64,000 bases of DNA from a virus, in the IMG/VR virus record IMGVR_UViG_3300042991_000201, positions 1 to 64,000 of that record; one strand, written 5' to 3'. A model generated the notes under the pieces. That model worked only from the letters and a program-made list of their open reading frames with translations, was not told the origin of the DNA and ran no database searches. The position numbers and the translations under genes were made by a program. Below, in pieces: positions 1 through 10,938 of the stretch. Each line of letters begins with the position of its first letter. The first letter of the stretch is position 1.

Positions 1-615
1 AACAAGGCTTTTGAGAAGGGTAAGGAATTTGATGCAGGGACATATTCTATGTCAGCACAAAAATTCATGTCTCAAGAATTCTTCCGTGGACTTTCTGCTA
101 AATTGGCACAAAAGAACGCCATGCTGTATCTTGTGAGTCAGGAACGCGACAATGTAGGTGCTGGGATGTATGCCGCAAAAAATCGTCTTGGTGGTGGCAG
201 AGCAGTACAGTTCTATGAGAGTGTTCGCATATATAGCAAGAAAAAGCAGACTATTGAAAAGAACAAAAAAGCTATCGGCGTTGTGATTGGCATTGAAGCA
301 CAGAAAACTAGGCATCCTCGTCCTTTCCGCGAATGCCTCATCCCTATTATGTTTACTACAGGAGCAGATAATACTGGTGCCAATATAGATTATCTATTTG
401 ATCTTCGTTCCGACAAAACTGGGGAATTACTAAAAAAGGCAGATGCTATTACTTGGTCAGACGATACAGAGTCTATGGATAGAGACACGCTCATTACTTA
501 TGTGGAAGAGAATCGACTACGTGGCGAATTGATTCGTAAAGTCATTGCCAAATGGGAAGAAGAAGAAGCGGCTATTGTAGTTACTCGTCGGCCAAAGTAC
601 GAGGATGACGAATAA
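1..615 (+). CDS. RecA/UvsX-like recombinase, C-terminal part (5' truncated)
   Basis: The frame is open from base 1, so the gene starts upstream and its Walker A region is missing. The visible 204 residues include the RecA core end: an LYLVSQERDN strand, a GGGRAVQFYESVRI segment resembling the RecA L2/ssDNA-binding region, and a PFRECLIPIMF stretch matching the RecA 'PFREAEFDI' region. The tail is acidic, as in RecA proteins. Such proteins form ATP-dependent filaments on single-stranded DNA for strand exchange. The TAA overlaps the next ATG (TAATG), so the two are translationally coupled. It heads a recombination block with SbcC/SbcD-like genes. Whether it is closer to RecA or UvsX cannot be decided from this fragment. 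Confidence 0.85.
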   Translation, partial: NKAFEKGKEFDAGTYSMSAQKFMSQEFFRGLSAKLAQKNAMLYLVSQERDNVGAGMYAAKNRLGGGRAVQFYESVRIYSKKKQTIEKNKKAIGVVIGIEAQKTRHPRPFRECLIPIMFTTGADNTGANIDYLFDLRSDKTGELLKKADAITWSDDTESMDRDTLITYVEENRLRGELIRKVIAKWEEEEAAIVVTRRPKYEDDE

Positions 616-1016: not shown

Positions 1017-1529
1017 ATGTTAGTTCCAGCAATTAGATACAAAGACGAACTTGCAAAATTCCATAGGGATGTAATATATGGTAATCCGTTATATCAATAT
1101 TGGAATTACAGTTCTTATTGGAAAGAATACGATCCCCCATGTTCCGATGATTGGAGTAGTATATGTAGGGTTTCCATAGACAGCTCTAAAAAACTTTTGG
1201 GATACCTGTCTGCTCATGTTTCAAGATCAGATACGTCTGTATCTTCTATTAGTATGTATAAAATGAATTTAGATACTATCGGTTTTACATTTGTTCGTGA
1301 TTTAGAGAAGTTTATTACGTCCTTATTTGAAGAACATAGGATGAAGAAAATATCATTCAGTGTAGTCATAGGCAATCCCGCTGAAAGATTATATGATGCT
1401 GGAATTTCTAAATTTGGAGGAAGGGTAGTAGGTACTAAATTACAAGAAGTTATATTGACAGACGGCAATACCTATGATGTTAAATTGTACGAAATTCTTA
1501 CGTATTGTATAAGTAGGAGGTGTAAATGA
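1017..1529 (+). CDS. GNAT-like N-acetyltransferase fold protein
   Basis: 170 residues, start preceded by AGGAGG (GGTAGGAGGTACCT). The C-terminal half reads like a GNAT fold: a central LLGYLSAHVSR strand, then GNPAERLYDAGISKFGGR resembling the 'N..A..Y...GF...G' acetyl-CoA/substrate region, then a DG..YDV.LYEIL strand. Phage proteins of this type lie near replication genes; their substrate is generally unknown. The end overlaps the next start by 4 bp (ATGA). The assignment rests on pattern only and could be wrong. Confidence 0.5.
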   Translation: MLVPAIRYKDELAKFHRDVIYGNPLYQYWNYSSYWKEYDPPCSDDWSSICRVSIDSSKKLLGYLSAHVSRSDTSVSSISMYKMNLDTIGFTFVRDLEKFITSLFEEHRMKKISFSVVIGNPAERLYDAGISKFGGRVVGTKLQEVILTDGNTYDVKLYEILTYCISRRCK

Positions 1530-2590
1530 TAAAGACACTGGAGATTAAGAATTTCCAGTCCCACAAAGATACTGTTATAGAGTTTCATCCCGGTGTGAAC
1601 GTAATTCAAGGTTCTTCAAGGAATGGCAAGTCTGCCATCTTGAGGGCTTTGAATTATGTCATAAATAATAAACCATCCGGGATGAGGCACATATCCTTTT
1701 GGGCAAAGGAAAAAACAAAGATACTTGACCCTTGTAAAGTATCCATAACCTTCGGGGAAGGGCATACCGTATCCCGTATTCGTGGAGACATAAACGGATA
1801 CCAGATTGATGATGGAAAGCCCCTAGAGGCTATAGAACAATCTGTCCCTGATGCCGTTTCTCAGCTCTGCAACTTCTCTGAGATTAACATACAGAAGCAG
1901 ATGGATGCTCCATTCCTTCTAGCTACTTCTTCAGGGGAAGTATCCAAATTCTTCAACCGTGTCTTGCGGTTGGAAGATGCCGATGAATACCAGAGTCTTG
2001 TGGAAGGCAAACGTCGTAAGTGCAATGCAGATGTGAAGGCTGTGGAAGAGATTATCCCCTCCCTCCAGAAAGAGCTGGCAGAGTATTCATGGATAGAAGA
2101 AGCGGAATACATCCTATCCAAGATTGTCATACAGGAAGCGGTTGTACAAGGACTTGAAACACAGAATTCCAAGATACGTATTGCCATATCTGATATGGAT
2201 GATCTGGAATCCAAGTTGGAACGATATGCTGTGATAGGACAGGCAGAGGAGATTTGTACACAGATACTATTGTGTTTGGAGGAAGTCAAATCACTTAGGG
2301 TACAGACTGATGCTTTGGCTAGTGCGTGTGAAAAACTCACACAGTACAATAGTGTCTGTGAGCAAGGGTTGAAGATTTCAGGGGCAGAAAAGCTCATTGC
2401 CAAACTAGAAGTTGCTCTGGAATATATTATAGGGCTTGAGAGTGATATGGAAGCTCTTAGGGCTGCTATAGCTAAAGAATGTACTTTGGTAGTTCATATA
2501 AAGATGTATGAAGAGGATATAGCAAAACTTGAGAAAAGTTTACCTGCTGTCTGTCCTCTTTGTGGAAAGGAGCTAAATAAATGTATTTAG
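1526..2590 (+). CDS. SbcC/Rad50-like ATPase, N-terminal half ending at the zinc hook
   Basis: 354 residues. Residues 1-60 carry the Rad50/SbcC N-terminal lobe with Walker A GSSRNGKS (29-36). Residues about 170-335 are heptad-rich coiled coil. The protein ends with CPLCGKEL, giving a CxxC (Cys343, Cys346) like the Rad50 zinc-hook apex, eight residues before the stop. A normal SbcC continues through a returning coil and a C-terminal lobe with signature and Walker B; here those lie in a separate gene 4.7 kb downstream (7273-7905). Expected role: the ATPase partner of the SbcD-like nuclease at 3291, clearing DNA ends and hairpins during replication and recombination. The stop overlaps the next start. 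Confidence 0.85.
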   Translation: MIKTLEIKNFQSHKDTVIEFHPGVNVIQGSSRNGKSAILRALNYVINNKPSGMRHISFWAKEKTKILDPCKVSITFGEGHTVSRIRGDINGYQIDDGKPLEAIEQSVPDAVSQLCNFSEINIQKQMDAPFLLATSSGEVSKFFNRVLRLEDADEYQSLVEGKRRKCNADVKAVEEIIPSLQKELAEYSWIEEAEYILSKIVIQEAVVQGLETQNSKIRIAISDMDDLESKLERYAVIGQAEEICTQILLCLEEVKSLRVQTDALASACEKLTQYNSVCEQGLKISGAEKLIAKLEVALEYIIGLESDMEALRAAIAKECTLVVHIKMYEEDIAKLEKSLPAVCPLCGKELNKCI

Positions 2591-3291
2591 CAATTAACGC
2601 ATCGCAACAAGAGCCCCCTAGCATTATCCACGATGAATTGTGTATTCGTATGGGGAAGCGCATACCCTTTGGACTCATGGCCGCTATAGGACTTGAAACT
2701 GTGTTTGTTGGTGGTAACTCCTGTAACCGGGATACCCCTAACGATATAGATATGTTTCCTGTGGGAGAATATGACTTCAGACTATTGGATGCAACGTGTG
2801 CCGAACAGAATATAGAAATTCTAAGTAAGACTTCCAACGCTCTTACCATATCTTATCGTGGATTGGTGGTACAGTTCTGTAATTTTCATCACCCCAATCT
2901 TAAAACTCTAGTGGAGTCATTTGACTTCGCTCATATCCAGATTGGAGTACTTGCAGATAGCTCCGATAACAGCATCCTGAGTTCCTATGTTTCCCCTGCT
3001 TGGACGAAGTATCATCTTTTGCAGTCAACGGCTTATATAGGATCAAAGTACCCTGTATCCAGTCTCATACGTTCATACAAATACGTCAAGCGGGGAGACT
3101 TTAGTGGCAAGTCTTATCTTTTCTCTGTTATGGCTATACTAGCTGACATAGTAGAACGGGGATTTGAAAACTACAAGGATTTTAAGGATCAGTTGGATGC
3201 TGTGGATTTGGGGCTTCTTCCAGAAGAGTATTCAGCATTTGATCGTAGTGAGCTTCTGAGATTCTTCAATGCTCTAAGGAAGGACAAATAA
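2581..3291 (+). CDS. Nucleotidyltransferase-fold protein
   Basis: 236 residues. Near residue 38 there is VFVGGNSCNRDTPNDIDMF, matching the Pol-beta-type nucleotidyltransferase pattern (GG/GS, about ten residues, then DxD). Such enzymes add NMP to RNA, protein or small molecules; the target cannot be told here. It overlaps the SbcC-N gene by 10 bp and the SbcD-like gene by 1 bp, so it is embedded in that operon. With the downstream RNA ligase it could belong to an RNA end-repair set, or be an MNT-like AMP-transferase. The fold is moderately supported; the function is open. Confidence 0.6.
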   Translation: MYLAINASQQEPPSIIHDELCIRMGKRIPFGLMAAIGLETVFVGGNSCNRDTPNDIDMFPVGEYDFRLLDATCAEQNIEILSKTSNALTISYRGLVVQFCNFHHPNLKTLVESFDFAHIQIGVLADSSDNSILSSYVSPAWTKYHLLQSTAYIGSKYPVSSLIRSYKYVKRGDFSGKSYLFSVMAILADIVERGFENYKDFKDQLDAVDLGLLPEEYSAFDRSELLRFFNALRKDK

Positions 3292-4238
3292 TGTCTCGAT
3301 ACATAGTAACAGCAGACAATCACTTACGGTTTGATCCTCCTATATGCCGTCTCGATGACGATTGGCTTGCTTTTCAGCAGAAAGCTCTCCTTGACATAGT
3401 AAGCAAGGCCAATGAGTATGAATGTGATCTGATAATTGTAGGTGATCTTTTTGATTCGTATGCAGTTCATTCTGTTATAGTCTCCATGTTTATAGACTCT
3501 ATGTCTGCGCTTCTTGGTCGATGCCACATCATAGGAGGTAATCATACTCTCAAGTATCACCGTGAAGAAAACATAAGTGAATCCTCTATCGGCATCATCA
3601 AAGCCATTGCTGGAGATAACACAGGGAAGATTAGGTATTACACTTGTCAAGAAGAAAGTATAGAGGGGCGCTTTGAACATTCCTATCGACTGGATGATGA
3701 TATTACTCTTGTGCATACTCTTGTATTTCCCAACGAAGATGCCATTCCTTTTGGAGCTAAGGGGGTAGCACCTGAATATCTCTTAGAGAAGTTTGACACT
3801 CCGTGGATATTCACTGGAGACATGCACCACAACTTTGTCTATGAAAATGGGGGGCGTAGAGTTATCAATCCCGGATGTATGGCCATCCAGAATGCAGATG
3901 AGCTTGACTATATTCCCGGTGTATACTATGTAGATACGGGGGATAAGATTGATGTGTCTACGTTGGCAGATAAACATAAGCCGGTCTATCGTATTTCAAA
4001 TTTCGAGATTGCCTTCATCCCTATATTCAATGATACCACTATGGTGACACGAAACCACCTTGAGCGGAATCAGAAGCGGGATGCTAGGATGGAAGCATTT
4101 GTAGAATTGATTCAGCTTGGTAGGAATGTGAAGCTGTCGTTTATGGACAACCTTGCAGAAACTCTCAAAAAAACCTTGACAAGTGAAGAAGTTGATAGTA
4201 TATTTGATGAACTCAAGGAGGAATCACATGGCGTTTAG
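3291..4238 (+). CDS. SbcD/Mre11-like metallophosphoesterase nuclease
   Basis: 315 residues with calcineurin-like motifs in order: TADNHLR (D9, H11), VGDLFDSY (GDxxD near 51-55), GGNHTLKYH (GNH near 83-85) and TGDMHHN near residue 180. These bind the two metals of the Mre11/SbcD family. The C-terminal part is probably the capping or SbcC-binding region. The start lies in a TAATG overlap with the gene before. Together with the two SbcC halves it would make an SbcCD-type exo/endonuclease. The usual D of GNHD is T here, a variation near the active site worth noting. Confidence 0.85.
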   Translation: MSRYIVTADNHLRFDPPICRLDDDWLAFQQKALLDIVSKANEYECDLIIVGDLFDSYAVHSVIVSMFIDSMSALLGRCHIIGGNHTLKYHREENISESSIGIIKAIAGDNTGKIRYYTCQEESIEGRFEHSYRLDDDITLVHTLVFPNEDAIPFGAKGVAPEYLLEKFDTPWIFTGDMHHNFVYENGGRRVINPGCMAIQNADELDYIPGVYYVDTGDKIDVSTLADKHKPVYRISNFEIAFIPIFNDTTMVTRNHLERNQKRDARMEAFVELIQLGRNVKLSFMDNLAETLKKTLTSEEVDSIFDELKEESHGV

Positions 4239-4554
4239 AGTACGGATTGAAGATACGGAATTCAATATGCATGAGTTTATGGTCAATGATACAGACAGTA
4301 TTCAGGCATCTCTTAATTGTGATGGTCGGTTCAAGCCTATAGAACCAGATATTCCAGATTTGGAGATGGTAAAAGAAACGATTAAATATGAGGGCTGGAC
4401 TGCGGATGATCTAGGTCTTATCCTTGATGAGAAAGATATTGATGATTTTGATATGGACACGATATATGAATACATCATGGATAGAGACCATCGACGCAGA
4501 AAATTCATCAATAAGATGGAAGATGATGGCTATATCCCTACAAAGGAGGCATAA
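4228..4554 (+). CDS. Acidic hypothetical protein
   Basis: 108 residues, strongly acidic. The start chosen is the ATG with AAGGAGG eight bases upstream; a longer frame from 4183 has no comparable site. It overlaps the end of the SbcD-like gene by 11 bp. The second half has many Asp/Glu (for example LDEKDIDDFDMDTIYEYIMD). No family recognised. As a small acidic protein inside the SbcCD/ligase operon it could be a regulatory subunit or DNA mimic, but nothing shows this directly. Confidence 0.7.
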   Translation: MAFRVRIEDTEFNMHEFMVNDTDSIQASLNCDGRFKPIEPDIPDLEMVKETIKYEGWTADDLGLILDEKDIDDFDMDTIYEYIMDRDHRRRKFINKMEDDGYIPTKEA

Positions 4555-4555
4555 G

Positions 4556-4711
4556 ATGGAGAAAACTTCAATCACTAAATTCATTTCCGATGGTATTTCA
4601 GGATTTCTTGCTGGTGTACTTCTACTTGGAATGACAGCAGGGGCTCTCTGGTTCAGTCTTTGGAGCATACAAGGGCTTATTGATAAGATCACTTCTATTC
4701 TAGCGAGGTAG
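4556..4711 (+). CDS. Small single-span membrane protein
   Basis: 51 residues; ATG preceded by AAGGAGGCATAAG. Residues about 16-40 form one hydrophobic span (FLAGVLLLGMTAGALWFSL) flanked by short polar ends. It directly follows the acidic protein gene and precedes the RNA ligase gene by 4 bp. No family recognised; it is placed in the operon by spacing and ribosome site alone. A membrane protein amid repair genes is unusual. Confidence 0.65.
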   Translation: MEKTSITKFISDGISGFLAGVLLLGMTAGALWFSLWSIQGLIDKITSILAR

Positions 4712-4715
4712 GAAT

Positions 4716-7046
4716 ATGGAAAACAACAAAGCATTTGTAGCCATATTGAAACACATTACACCAATAGAAGGTGCTGATAAAATCGTGCAAGCCCAAGTGT
4801 ATCTCAATGGTGTACCTATTACTCAAGTTATAGTCGGAGTAAATACCAAGGAAGATACTCCTGTTGTTTACTTTGATAGCAATGTATGTCTATCTGACAG
4901 ACTCGTTACGGACTATCCTGACCTTGCTACCTATCTTGCCAAAGATAATCGTGTGCGATGTATCAAATTACGTGGGGTAGTGTCTAATGGATTGTGCATA
5001 GATATTGTCAAATTTGCAAAGTACACTGCCGTAGAGATGCCTGAAGGTTACGCTTTTGACAAATTAGGGGATGTAGAGATTTGTCACAAGTTCATCCCCC
5101 TGAAGCTGGAGCCTACTGTGAAACATAAGAATCGGGAACGGAAAGCCAAAAAGCCTTCTCGTATCATTCCAGAGATGTTTCACTTTCATATCGATACGGA
5201 ACAGCTTCCAAGGAATATGCACAAACTTCATATTGATGATGTAGTATCTATTAGCAGAAAATACCATGGATGCTTCACGGGTAGAACACTGGTATCTATG
5301 GGAGACGGGACTAAAAAGAGAATAAAGGATATTGTCGTTGGGGATAGTATATTGGGATGCACAGAAGAAGGTGGAGTTGTACTTAGTAAAGTATTGAATA
5401 CTTTTATGAATGGGACTACTGACAAGTGGTATCGTATTAAATATAGAGGGAGAAAAATTCTACATGCCACAGGAACTCATCGCATATATACTCAACGTGG
5501 TTATGTAGAAGTACAAGACCTTACCCCACAGGATAAGATAATATATCCTACAACAGTTCCAATCCTAGATATAGATGCAAAGTCTGTGCTACTAGGTAAA
5601 GCATTGGGAGACGGATGCCTTCAGTCAAACGCAGACTCTTTAATGCTTCAGGTATCTCATAAAAATGACCATGAGCAATATTTAGATTATTGCATCTCTC
5701 TTCTACATCCTATTGACTGTGGTAGTAGTAAGACACACAAGACTTCCGGGTATGGCACAGATATGATTCGCTGGCATAGCTCACAAACACACGCAATAAA
5801 CCATACTTTGAAAGCCTATCTGTCAGATAAGAAGTTTAAGATAACTGAGGCACTTGTTAATGATTTAACCCCGCTCGCTTTAGCTATTTGGTACATGGAC
5901 GATGGTAGTTTAATACATTCCGAGTTACAACAGGATCGTGCTGGGCTTGCTATTTGCTCTTTTGGCCCAGAAGTATATCCCATCATAGGCAGAGCTTTAG
6001 CTCAGTATGGTATAGAAAATGTGACTTTCTATACTTCGCATAATAAGGGCAATCCCAAAGCACATTCCCGTATTCGATTTAATTTGGATGCCGCTTGTAA
6101 GCTATTTGAGTTAATAAAGGAGTATATACCTCCATGTATGCAATACAAACTTCCAGTAGAGTACAGAGGATACTATAAGTCTCCTACTATACGTACATCT
6201 ATAGAATATGAGCAAATACTGGTTCCTTATTCTGTTGTTTCTGTAGAACAGGTAATTGCAGATGGATACACGGGGAATGGTAAGTATGACATAGAGACTG
6301 AGACTCACAACTATATTGCAAATGGAATTGTAGTGCATAACTGTTCTGCCATTACTAGCCATACGCAGGTCAAGAAATCTCTATCTATATTTGAAAAAGT
6401 TTTGAAGGTTTTCAAGTTTCCCGTGGGGGATAGGGAATGGACATACTTGTATGCAAGTCGTAGCGTAGTGAAAAATGACGCTGTATCTACAGGATTTTAC
6501 AAGTATGATTTATGGACGGAGACAGGTAAGAAGTATTTTGATGGTAAACTGCATAAGGGCGAGACAGTATACTATGAAATTATTGGATATATCCCCGGTA
6601 CCAAGAGTTTTATCCAGAAGAACTACGATTATGCTAACCTTCCCGGAGATTGTTCCATTGTTGTGTATCGTATCACTTCCACTAATACTGACGGGGTAGT
6701 GTATGAATATTCTTGGGCGGCTATAAAAGACCGCTGTAAAGAGTTGGGTGTTCATATGGTACAAGAATATTATTACGGAACTATTCGTTCTCTACTCTTT
6801 GGATATTCTATAAGACCGAATCCAGAGTGGAATGCTGATCTACTTGCCCTACTTCAAAAGCGATACCTTGAACGAGATTGCCCCGACAATCTTTGCAAGA
6901 AGATGCCTGATGAAGGTATTGTACTTAGGGTAGAGGCAAAAGACATTCAGGTATACAAGTATAAGAGTGAAAAATTTTTGACTCAGGAATCTAAAGCCAA
7001 GGAAGATGAAGTTCCAGATATTGAAGAACAGGAAGGAGTACTCTAA
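4716..7046 (+). CDS. RNA ligase (DRB0094/Rnl2-like) interrupted by an intein
   Basis: 776-residue precursor. Residues 1-125 look like the N-terminal OB-type domain of DRB0094-family (Deinococcus Rnl5-like) RNA ligases (LKHITPIEGADKI...). The nucleotidyl-lysine motif KYHG (KxHG) is at 182-185 and is followed at once by an intein (186-542). After excision the 419-residue enzyme reads KYHG-CSAITS. The C-extein carries the rest of the adenylyltransferase domain. RNA ligases of this family seal nicks in RNA or RNA/DNA duplexes through a lysine-AMP intermediate. In phages such enzymes can repair RNA cut by host defence nucleases; that role is inferred. The start follows GAGGTAGGAAT; the stop overlaps the next start (TAATG). 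Confidence 0.8.
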   Translation: MENNKAFVAILKHITPIEGADKIVQAQVYLNGVPITQVIVGVNTKEDTPVVYFDSNVCLSDRLVTDYPDLATYLAKDNRVRCIKLRGVVSNGLCIDIVKFAKYTAVEMPEGYAFDKLGDVEICHKFIPLKLEPTVKHKNRERKAKKPSRIIPEMFHFHIDTEQLPRNMHKLHIDDVVSISRKYHGCFTGRTLVSMGDGTKKRIKDIVVGDSILGCTEEGGVVLSKVLNTFMNGTTDKWYRIKYRGRKILHATGTHRIYTQRGYVEVQDLTPQDKIIYPTTVPILDIDAKSVLLGKALGDGCLQSNADSLMLQVSHKNDHEQYLDYCISLLHPIDCGSSKTHKTSGYGTDMIRWHSSQTHAINHTLKAYLSDKKFKITEALVNDLTPLALAIWYMDDGSLIHSELQQDRAGLAICSFGPEVYPIIGRALAQYGIENVTFYTSHNKGNPKAHSRIRFNLDAACKLFELIKEYIPPCMQYKLPVEYRGYYKSPTIRTSIEYEQILVPYSVVSVEQVIADGYTGNGKYDIETETHNYIANGIVVHNCSAITSHTQVKKSLSIFEKVLKVFKFPVGDREWTYLYASRSVVKNDAVSTGFYKYDLWTETGKKYFDGKLHKGETVYYEIIGYIPGTKSFIQKNYDYANLPGDCSIVVYRITSTNTDGVVYEYSWAAIKDRCKELGVHMVQEYYYGTIRSLLFGYSIRPNPEWNADLLALLQKRYLERDCPDNLCKKMPDEGIVLRVEAKDIQVYKYKSEKFLTQESKAKEDEVPDIEEQEGVL
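5271..6341 (+). mobile_element. Intein with LAGLIDADG homing endonuclease
   Basis: 357 residues within the RNA ligase. It starts with Cys (CFTGRTLV, block A) and has block B-like HATGTHRIY. Two LAGLIDADG helices follow (LLGKALGDGCL near intein residue 107 and LALAIWYMDDGSL near 205). It ends with a block F/G stretch finishing VVHN, and the next extein residue is Cys. All features of a class 1 self-splicing, probably still mobile intein are present. Splicing restores the ligase active site, because insertion is directly after the KxHG motif. Confidence 0.93.
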
Positions 7047-7288
7047 TGGATGCACGAGAATTTGAGACTATCAAGAATAAGGTATCTATCCTCAAGGAGA
7101 AGTTCACCAAGGCCCAAGGTGCTTTGGAGACTCTTCGTGAAACCAATTTGAAGGACTTCGGTACGAACGATGTTGCTGATATGCATAAAATGGTGAAAGA
7201 CAATGATACCGTCATCCTTCAGGTAGAAGCCAAGATAGATAGTTTGTACGAGGAATTGAAAGGACTCACAAATTGGAATCTGCTGTAG
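7046..7288 (+). CDS. Coiled-coil protein, probable SbcC hook-to-lobe coil segment
   Basis: 80 residues, almost wholly heptad-like (FETIKNKVSILKEKFTKAQGALETL), beginning in a TAATG overlap with the RNA ligase gene. It precedes the SbcC C-terminal lobe gene and overlaps it by 16 bp in the -1 frame. In a continuous SbcC this segment would be the coil returning from the zinc hook to the ATPase head. It could be a separate subunit, or the N-terminus of the next protein if a frameshift joins them; no clear slippery heptamer was seen at the overlap. Confidence 0.7.
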   Translation: MDAREFETIKNKVSILKEKFTKAQGALETLRETNLKDFGTNDVADMHKMVKDNDTVILQVEAKIDSLYEELKGLTNWNLL

Positions 7289-7905
7289 CTTTTCAGTCTC
7301 GTATAGACAGGGCTAAGGGAATGCGCTCCACAATATCCCGCAAGCTGGAGGAGGCAGAGACGAAAAAAGCTCTGCTCCTCAAGCGACAGATTGCTGTGGA
7401 ATTCGCACAAGCCATTATTCAACAAGTTGCACGTGAAACACAAGAGTCTGTACGTGTTCACTTAGAGGACATTGTGCAGAAGTGTCTTGACACTGTATTC
7501 CCTGATGAATACACATTCAAAATGGACTTTGCAATCTCTCGTGGTAAGACGGAGATTAAACTGCAATTCTTTGTGGATGGGGAAGAGACAGACCCAATGG
7601 AAGCAGAAGGTGGGGGGCTTGTAGACATAGCCGCCCTTGGACTTCGCATAGCTTCTTGGACTCTCTCTGGTACGAGGAATACCATGATCTTTGATGAGAA
7701 TATGAAGTTCTTGTCTAAAGACTTGCAACCACGGGGGGCAGAAGTAATCAAGGAGCTATCAAAGGGACTTGGACTACAATTTATCTTTGCCTCACATAGT
7801 CCAGACATTCTTGCTGTAGCTGATAAGATTATCGAAGTGAAGATTGCTAAAGAGATAATCAATGGCAAGGAATATCGAGTATCCAAAGTATCCATAGGAG
7901 AGTAA
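7273..7905 (+). CDS. SbcC/Rad50-like ATPase, C-terminal half
   Basis: 210 residues from a TTG start with AAAGGA about eight bases upstream; an ATG at 7321 is the alternative. Residues 1-70 are coiled coil. Residues 110-128 (EAEGGGLVDIAALGLRIAS) match the ABC signature helix region, TMIFDEN (137-143) is Walker B with the catalytic Glu, and FASHSPDI near 175 is the switch His. It lacks Walker A, which sits in the gene at 1526. The two products should assemble into composite ATP sites, with the nuclease at 3291 as partner. Confidence 0.83.
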   Translation: MESAVAFQSRIDRAKGMRSTISRKLEEAETKKALLLKRQIAVEFAQAIIQQVARETQESVRVHLEDIVQKCLDTVFPDEYTFKMDFAISRGKTEIKLQFFVDGEETDPMEAEGGGLVDIAALGLRIASWTLSGTRNTMIFDENMKFLSKDLQPRGAEVIKELSKGLGLQFIFASHSPDILAVADKIIEVKIAKEIINGKEYRVSKVSIGE

Positions 7906-9865: not shown

Positions 9866-9977
9866 ACATAATCTCCTCAGCGTTAGGTGTATTTGCAAAT
9901 GCCCCAAAGTATTCATCTAACCAGTGCACATCCTGTGCACCTATACCTACTTGCAATCCATTTAATTCAATCTTCAT
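9855..9977 (-). CDS. 40-residue small protein
   Basis: Starts MKIELNGLQVGIGAQDVHWL with GGGGAGG nine bases upstream, and overlaps both the phosphoesterase gene (11 bp) and the holin-like gene (11 bp). The chained overlaps are typical of real phage genes. No function recognised. Confidence 0.55.
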   Translation of the reverse strand: MKIELNGLQVGIGAQDVHWLDEYFGAFANTPNAEEIMYGK

Positions 9978-10938
9978 AGTGAATATCCTCCCCTAGTGTA
10001 TAGAATGTAGGTTGAAATTTAAGTATTCTTCCATTACGAACAGTCATCTTAATAATCCAAAAGCCTGTATAAGCATCCATACGTCTACCTCTCATAAATC
10101 CTGTTTGTTTCTGTATACACCCCCCTGCAACTACATAGGAACCCTTATACTTAAAAGATATGGCTTTATGGTCATGTGCCGTTATCAATATACTAGGTCG
10201 ATCTGATATAGGTATTGAATCTAAGATTCTCTGTCCTCTATGAGATAATGCCGCACTCGCCCCAGCATCCGTACCATGGAATAATGTTATTTTAATATCA
10301 TTTACTACGATAGACCCATCGTTAGTACCTAGATATCTTAAATTGCCTACAGCATTGCACACCTCTTCTACTATATCAACTCCCATGCCTATTTTAGTAT
10401 TAAAGGATTCATCGTGATTTCCATTTATAACATACATAGGCAGTGGGCATTGTTTGAATATGCGGATAGCCTCATCTCTCTGTGCTTTATACCCAATAGA
10501 TGACAACTCATATACATGAGAGGGTCTATTCATCATACCTTCTACAACGTCACCAGCATGAACTACAAATGAACAGTTCTCAGTTTGAAACTCCCTAAAA
10601 GCTGATAAAATATCTTGAGGGTCAGTATCAATACTACCTATGTGGGTATCTGCTAATACGCCAAATGTAATGGTCTCCCCCGCATACGATACATCCGGGA
10701 CTTGCTTAGTTACAGGAGTTATTCTACTTGAAGATATAATCCCTTTCAACTCACTGTCTGTAAATCTCTTCTTGAGTGCTAGATATATTAAAGCCCCTTC
10801 TCCATAAATCTCTTTGTACTTTCTGCGATACCTTTCCAGTGTAGATATAGGTAATCCATATACTTCTGATGCTCGGGTATCCCCATGAGTCAGTGCATAG
10901 TCTATTACTTCAGTTACTCTTTCTTTACCAACTGGCAT
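9967..10938 (-). CDS. Metallophosphoesterase with N-terminal helix-turn-helix-like region
   Basis: 323 residues. The first 45 residues look like a small HTH (EVYGLPISTLERYRRKY). The catalytic domain has VLADTHIGS near 93, HAGDVVEG near 127, INGNHDES near 171, LFHGTD near 220 and TAHDHKA near 250, all the metal ligands of a calcineurin-like phosphoesterase. It is a second such enzyme in the window, separate from the SbcD-like one and placed among late genes. Possible roles are a DNA endonuclease used in packaging or host DNA turnover, or a phosphatase. The DNA-binding-like N-terminus favours a nucleic acid substrate. Confidence 0.8.
   Translation of the reverse strand: MPVGKERVTEVIDYALTHGDTRASEVYGLPISTLERYRRKYKEIYGEGALIYLALKKRFTDSELKGIISSSRITPVTKQVPDVSYAGETITFGVLADTHIGSIDTDPQDILSAFREFQTENCSFVVHAGDVVEGMMNRPSHVYELSSIGYKAQRDEAIRIFKQCPLPMYVINGNHDESFNTKIGMGVDIVEEVCNAVGNLRYLGTNDGSIVVNDIKITLFHGTDAGASAALSHRGQRILDSIPISDRPSILITAHDHKAISFKYKGSYVVAGGCIQKQTGFMRGRRMDAYTGFWIIKMTVRNGRILKFQPTFYTLGEDIHYED

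Follow-up and report, generated by a model that had tools for sequence, protein, structure and literature searches.

Proteins of the Rad50/SbcC group (archaeal Rad50, E. coli SbcC, T4 gp46) share a two-part ABC head, a coiled arm with a CxxC hook, and a partner of the Mre11 family. Archaeal Rad50 is a single protein, and to our knowledge Rad50 has been regarded as a single-chain protein in organisms ranging from phages to humans. It is debated whether a continuous hook end and arm are needed for relaying ATP-driven changes. In the current study a departure from this architecture was analyzed in the first 64 kb (the window) of the 73.8-kb IMG/VR virus record IMGVR_UViG_3300042991_000201, whose portal, terminase and tape-measure genes indicate a tailed phage. 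Here, the head is encoded by two genes (N and C), divided just past the hook; the signature is of the GGG type, and a separate gene (c) encodes an 80-amino acid (aa) protein to which arm length is not coupled. Together with a nuclease-like gene (D), these genes most probably specify (at roughly 85%) an Mre11-Rad50-type end-processing complex with Rad50 in separate chains, which would feed the phage recombinase.

D belongs to the same gene set and shares metallophosphoesterase motifs and a profile match with Mre11/SbcD (T4 gp47), but is short (~280–330 aa). Separate N and C lobes that assemble one head were already available from P. furiosus Rad50 (1F2T/1F2U, 1II8, 3QKR), but those are laboratory truncations without most of the arm, whereas here the split is natural, arm and hook are kept, and c is added. 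The archaeal HerA-NurA-Mre11-Rad50 operon has a counterpart in Thermosyntropha lipolytica, where NurA, HerA, D, N, c and C stand in a row; Rad50 is one protein in the archaeal case (for example, locus L126), but is split in Thermosyntropha.

A rearranged Mre11-Rad50 gene structure is also found in the Mimivirus R555-type Mre11/Rad50 fusions, which are fused where the present genes are split (PMC3175470). That report notes that two such fusions, from Bacillus phage 0305phi8-36 and from Anaerostipes, showed no sign of one P-loop NTPase segment. A D-N fusion with C encoded elsewhere would fit this gap, and a BFVD match (A7KV18) is relevant to the comparison with the phage 0305phi8-36 fusion. The split may account for published Mre11/Rad50 fusions of phages and Clostridia in which one ATPase half seems to be missing. 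The accessible part of PMC3175470 describes neither a split Rad50 nor a separate C-lobe gene, and no natural split Rad50 was found in open-access full text, which does not prove the absence of a published report.

The divided Rad50 and its conserved partners

The N chain carries the Walker A motif, Q-loop and arm of a Rad50/SbcC N-lobe, as seen in its sequence, in the alignment of its relatives and in profiles. Family scans (Pfam/NCBIfam/PHROG) matched it to AAA_23 and Rad50 models, and the profile of N relatives had Rad50 as its top PDB match (table 1). The chain ends in AVCPLCGKELNKCI, confirming the claim of an earlier note on this DNA that the first gene stops eight residues after the hook. 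Among 97 complete N chains, CxxC forms the chain end in 95 (median of 8 residues from CxxC to the end), and in the remaining two the cysteines are spaced more widely. The hook lies between ~290 and 470 residues along N in different loci. Arm lengths were also seen to group in ~45-residue steps (hooks near 297, 340 and 387), as if a helical unit had been gained or lost, with a periodicity test that was not decisive.

All C-lobe features, namely the ABC signature (GGG-type in alignment and profile), Walker B and the H-loop, are present in C, where they read EGGGLVDIAALGLR (signature region), MIFDEN and ASHS, respectively; the first two had been correctly assigned to this gene beforehand. C was matched to SMC_N and phrog_15167 in family scans, and the profile of its relatives had the C half of Rad50 as top PDB match, so that the profile search proposed for the two halves placed each on its own part of the same protein (2.7e-18 and 7.2e-16; table 1). 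C-only queries against the viral contigs gave no matches.

D was weakly matched to phosphoesterases in family scans of the window protein itself, but the profile from D relatives had Mre11 as its top PDB match. The motifs DxH, GD, GNH, H and GDxH were found, and the window protein has GNH. The alignment also shows a conserved C-terminal segment, a candidate for the arm-binding helix-loop-helix of Mre11/SbcD. The profile match and the motifs support the previous designation of this gene as an SbcD-like nuclease.

A scan of viral contigs with N detected 28 relatives, and 80 of at least 544 confirmed matches were taken from an alignment scan. Hidden Markov models for N, D, c and C were run over the retrieved loci, many of which were short contigs. 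N was present in 120 loci, of which 91 also had C, 89 had c and 103 had D. Where the locus was adequately sampled (at least 6 kb of sequence after N), N, D, c and C all lay within the retrieved stretch in 56/62 cases. The halves, whose failure ever to co-occur the earlier note had named as a refutation, are thus found together; D co-occurs with them, as proposed for a two-chain Rad50 working with an SbcD-like nuclease, and c belongs to the set as well. Loci L084 and L027 had no detectable c, and L029 had N alone within the retrieved stretch.

No fused N+C, c+C or c+N open reading frame (ORF) was detected in the viral or bacterial loci examined. N and C were always separate genes there, and the only one-chain protein encountered was the archaeal Rad50 of L126. 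Because the lobes are encoded separately and never fused in these loci, the system was classed as a split variant and not as an ordinary Rad50. Phages mostly have the genes in the order N-D-c-C and bacteria in the order D-N-c-C, with C-D-N-c, N-c-C-D and c-C-N also occurring, and the N-C gap can be as small as 22 nt or as large as several kb. Inter-protein distances were correlated (r=0.81 for N/C, 0.76 for N/D and 0.63 for c/C; reached by 0/2000 permutations in each case), a result that would also arise from shared inheritance alone.

Among phage isolates, vB_BboS-125 has the set as gp32, gp34, gp35 and an unannotated D, and in Microcystis phage Mvi-JY20 it consists of four adjacent genes annotated as hypothetical proteins, the hook being CSQC. 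In the 133-kb genome of Microbacterium phage Magritte (L128, L129), C is located at 0.3 kb and N only at 94 kb; gene 1, which adjoins C, encodes no recognisable c.

The genome scan revealed tight D-N-c-C operons in Tissierella praeacuta, Thermosyntropha lipolytica, Tepidibacter, Miniphocaeibacter and several metagenome-assembled genomes. The Tissierella operon sits between recA and rny (identities read from the sequences), and in T. lipolytica (L112:6090-12370) NurA (PF09376, 3.2e-20) and a HerA-type helicase precede D, N, c and C. In an even draw of Clostridia, 10/118 genomes had a long N chain. SbcC_Walker_B (PF13558) exceeded its cut-off in 1/10 genomes with N, compared to 10/20 without N, and in 0/4 split-carrying genomes that were checked directly. 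This hints that the split set replaces SbcC in these Clostridia, with PF13558 as an imperfect marker that matched only 10/20 genomes without the split.

Since the same split set recurs in ~100 other phages and also in bacterial chromosomes, the split Rad50 is a real variant of a universal repair machine, and one that apparently was not described before. With its family-scan and PDB profile matches and its recurrence in independent contigs, isolates and chromosomes, the split stands well above chance. Likely functions can now be proposed for genes whose current annotation is hypothetical protein, exonuclease, ATPase or chromosome segregation protein. With a two-chain Rad50 that is natural, widespread and equipped with an additional subunit, the question of arm continuity also becomes testable on native proteins.

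Predicted head and proposed complex

The Tissierella N and C were modelled with AlphaFold 2 (AF2) as one chain, joined by an in-frame read-through linker in which stops were replaced by Gly, with relatives as unpaired rows. The head parts of both were mostly predicted with a per-residue confidence (pLDDT) of at least 90, while the arm and linker were low. In VIA-align 2, residues 2-785 of the model matched residues 1-882 of P. furiosus Rad50 4ncj_A (Z 28.6, 2.9 Å, 295/311 residues), the match extending over both chains, and SMC heads scored like Rad50. The model, which is of a linked bacterial relative and not of the free chains of the window, supports a composite Rad50/SMC-type head formed by N and C. 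The PDB matches included crystal structures of Rad50 heads in which the N and C parts are separate chains (1f2t A/B, 1ii8, 3qkr A/B), indicating that a split head can assemble.

The c protein is 75-100 aa long in all loci (median 80, 5th-95th percentile 76-88), and its consensus consists of two amphipathic helices with an [FYW]-G-x-x-[ST] turn between them. A second AF2 model predicted helices of 36 and 32 residues (pLDDT near 95), which is weak support because ~20 N rows of the alignment were partly misaligned to c; a fold search with this model gave a match confined to the N-lobe. As c has a fixed length that is uncoupled from the N arm and an internal turn of its own, it is regarded with moderate confidence as a dedicated small subunit and not as a missing arm strand.

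In the proposed complex, N would provide the ascending arm with its hook as well as Walker A and the Q-loop, and C the base of the descending arm, the signature, Walker B and the H-loop, the two folding jointly as one ABC head. ATP would be sandwiched between two such heads as in Rad50. D would dock at the arm base and cut or resect ends, and c would pack on the arms. The hook ends of two N chains are predicted to be clasped by a zinc site of 2 x CxxC. CxxC is present in 0/84 c proteins and 1/88 C proteins; being on N only, it would link one N to a second N', which is also how ordinary Rad50 dimerizes. Of the idea that a hook split at its apex yields a two-chain Rad50, the division into two chains just past the hook therefore stands, but not the joining of the two halves through zinc.

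T4 gp46/gp47 prepare ends for a recombinase. The present complex most likely does so for the adjacent UvsX/RecA-like protein, and ATP-dependent DNA end binding, tethering and resection, as in Rad50/SbcC, would be predicted of it. As a tentative extension, the two N chains might run side by side beyond a short N-C base, zinc-clasped at their free C-termini, with c as a detachable bracing or regulatory hairpin. If so, the arm would be built unlike that of every known Rad50/SMC protein, forming a ring or clamp with free arm chain ends that could open while zinc and ATP contacts stay intact.

Weighing the alternatives

Several observations weigh against the proposed end-processing complex. The asparagine of the Mre11 GNH motif, a metal ligand, is Gln (GQH) in many phage D proteins, and the signature is GGG-type instead of the usual LSGGE. 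The head model relies on an artificial linker and a bacterial relative, and the surface on which c meets its partner was not located. The Magritte N lacks CxxC, showing that the hook is not universal, and the lack of PF13558 in split-carrying Clostridia is suggestive only.

The arm could instead be built from three pieces, with c as the distal half of the descending strand, so that N, c and C rebuild an ordinary Rad50 that has been cut twice. c is coil-like, its gene mostly lies directly before C and often overlaps it (at most 200 nt apart in 44/57), and the chain lengths roughly sum in the window. In addition, the profile of c aligned with the beginning of C (81%, with an E-value of 1.2e-5 in a single comparison), a resemblance that may reflect shared origin or merely coil composition. 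However, c stays at ~80 aa while the position of the N hook varies across its whole range, with no correlation between the two (Spearman 0.09, p 0.44, n=75), and a length-matched missing arm is thus not supported. The internal turn of c also disagrees with this arrangement, as does its place after N rather than C in L063, L079, L098 and L103, and three pieces of one arm are considered a doubtful possibility. A function in defence, counter-defence or genome segregation, instead of end processing linked to recombination, is unlikely. Rad50/SMC-like ATPases are known in Lamassu, Gabija and retron systems, and N showed weak similarity to such ATPases, with low-ranking fold matches besides, but the best matches of N, C and D were to Rad50/Mre11 and the neighbours are recA, NurA/HerA or UvsX.

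It is very improbable that N and C are not partners at all, each being half of an SbcC that has degenerated and been retained for another role, as might be suspected from Magritte, where the hook is lost and the genes are tens of kb apart. Both halves of the nucleotide site are invariant across relatives, the N/C pair co-occurs with D and c, and the linked model gives one Rad50-like head. Scarcely any credence is given to a single chain in the cell, whether hidden by a sequencing error, restored by programmed frameshifting or interrupted by an intein or intron-type element, even though the c and C genes of the window share 16 nt, read in different frames, and the neighbouring ligase does contain an intein. 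N and C are separated by other genes, D among them, the order varies such that C can precede N, and no intein family match was found in N or C by family scan. A frameshift or assembly error, raised earlier as the possible undoing of the split, is ruled out by the same split in ~100 independent contigs, in isolates and in RefSeq chromosomes; neither a frameshift nor an undivided copy was detected among the viral and bacterial relatives. The TTG start of C with AAAGGA ahead of it suggests independent initiation, and since C has its own ribosome-binding site, c and C are apart in many loci and c is beside N in some, a programmed c-C frameshift is also unlikely.

Features of the segment and neighbouring genes

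The features of the segment are listed in table 1; all genes named in the earlier note were present.

Table 1. Position and supporting evidence of features at the start of the window.
Feature	Position	Strand	Evidence or remark
RecA/UvsX-like C-terminal fragment	49-615		family-scan matches
N chain: Rad50/SbcC N-lobe, arm, terminal zinc hook, 354 aa	1526-2590	+	AAA_23 1.1e-11; Rad50 PRK03918 1.1e-14; family profile vs Rad50 3aux 2.7e-18
Walker A GSSRNGKS (in N)	1610-1633	+	read from sequence; G29, G34, K35 invariant in 52 relatives
CPLC zinc-hook motif (in N), stop 8 residues later	2552-2563	+	terminal CxxC in 95/97 complete relatives; weak PF04423 match
Nucleotidyltransferase (NTase)-like ORF	2581-3291		between N and D
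D: Mre11/SbcD-like metallophosphoesterase, 315 aa	3291-4238	+	family profile vs Mre11 1ii7 3e-19; invariant DxH, GD, H motifs
Acidic ORF	4228-4554		between D and membrane ORF
Short membrane ORF	4556-4711		between acidic ORF and RNA ligase
RNA ligase, intein-interrupted	4716-7046; intein 5271-6341		
c: conserved helix-turn-helix coil subunit, 80 aa	7046-7288	+	relatives in 89/120 loci; length ~80 aa; helix-turn-helix pattern; AF2 helices 36 + 32 residues (alignment partly wrong)
AAAGGA	7259-7264		ahead of TTG of C
C chain: Rad50 C-lobe, 210 aa; TTG start	7273-7905	+	phrog_15167 ATPase 1e-25; family profile vs Rad50 3aux C half 7.2e-16
GGG of ABC signature region, EGGGLVD (in C)	7609-7617	+	G113, G115, D118 invariant in 42 relatives
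Walker B MIFDE (in C)	7684-7698	+	D141, E142 invariant in 42 relatives

The proposal that all genes between N and C act as one DNA/RNA end-processing system was not upheld. None of the ~120 other loci held a relative of the ligase, the acidic gene or two flanking genes, and a single relative of the NTase-like ORF was found among the retrieved loci (L038:6606-7343, 7e-51). A single system is thus ruled out for the NTase, acidic and ligase genes, the membrane gene having been outside that search. The variable gap and order of N and C in other loci, and their distance in Magritte, likewise speak against such a system.

The RecA/UvsX-like fragment opens the record upstream of the module and is probably cut by the contig end. 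The RNA ligase had been recognised between N and C, but its interruption had been missed: a LAGLIDADG intein (Pfam Intein_splicing, LAGLIDADG_2) follows directly after the KYHG (nucleotidyl-lysine) motif, with the junctions KYHG|C...HN|C. A second calcineurin-like phosphoesterase ORF (9967-10938, minus strand) lies among minus-strand genes and was weakly matched by the D profile (5e-6).

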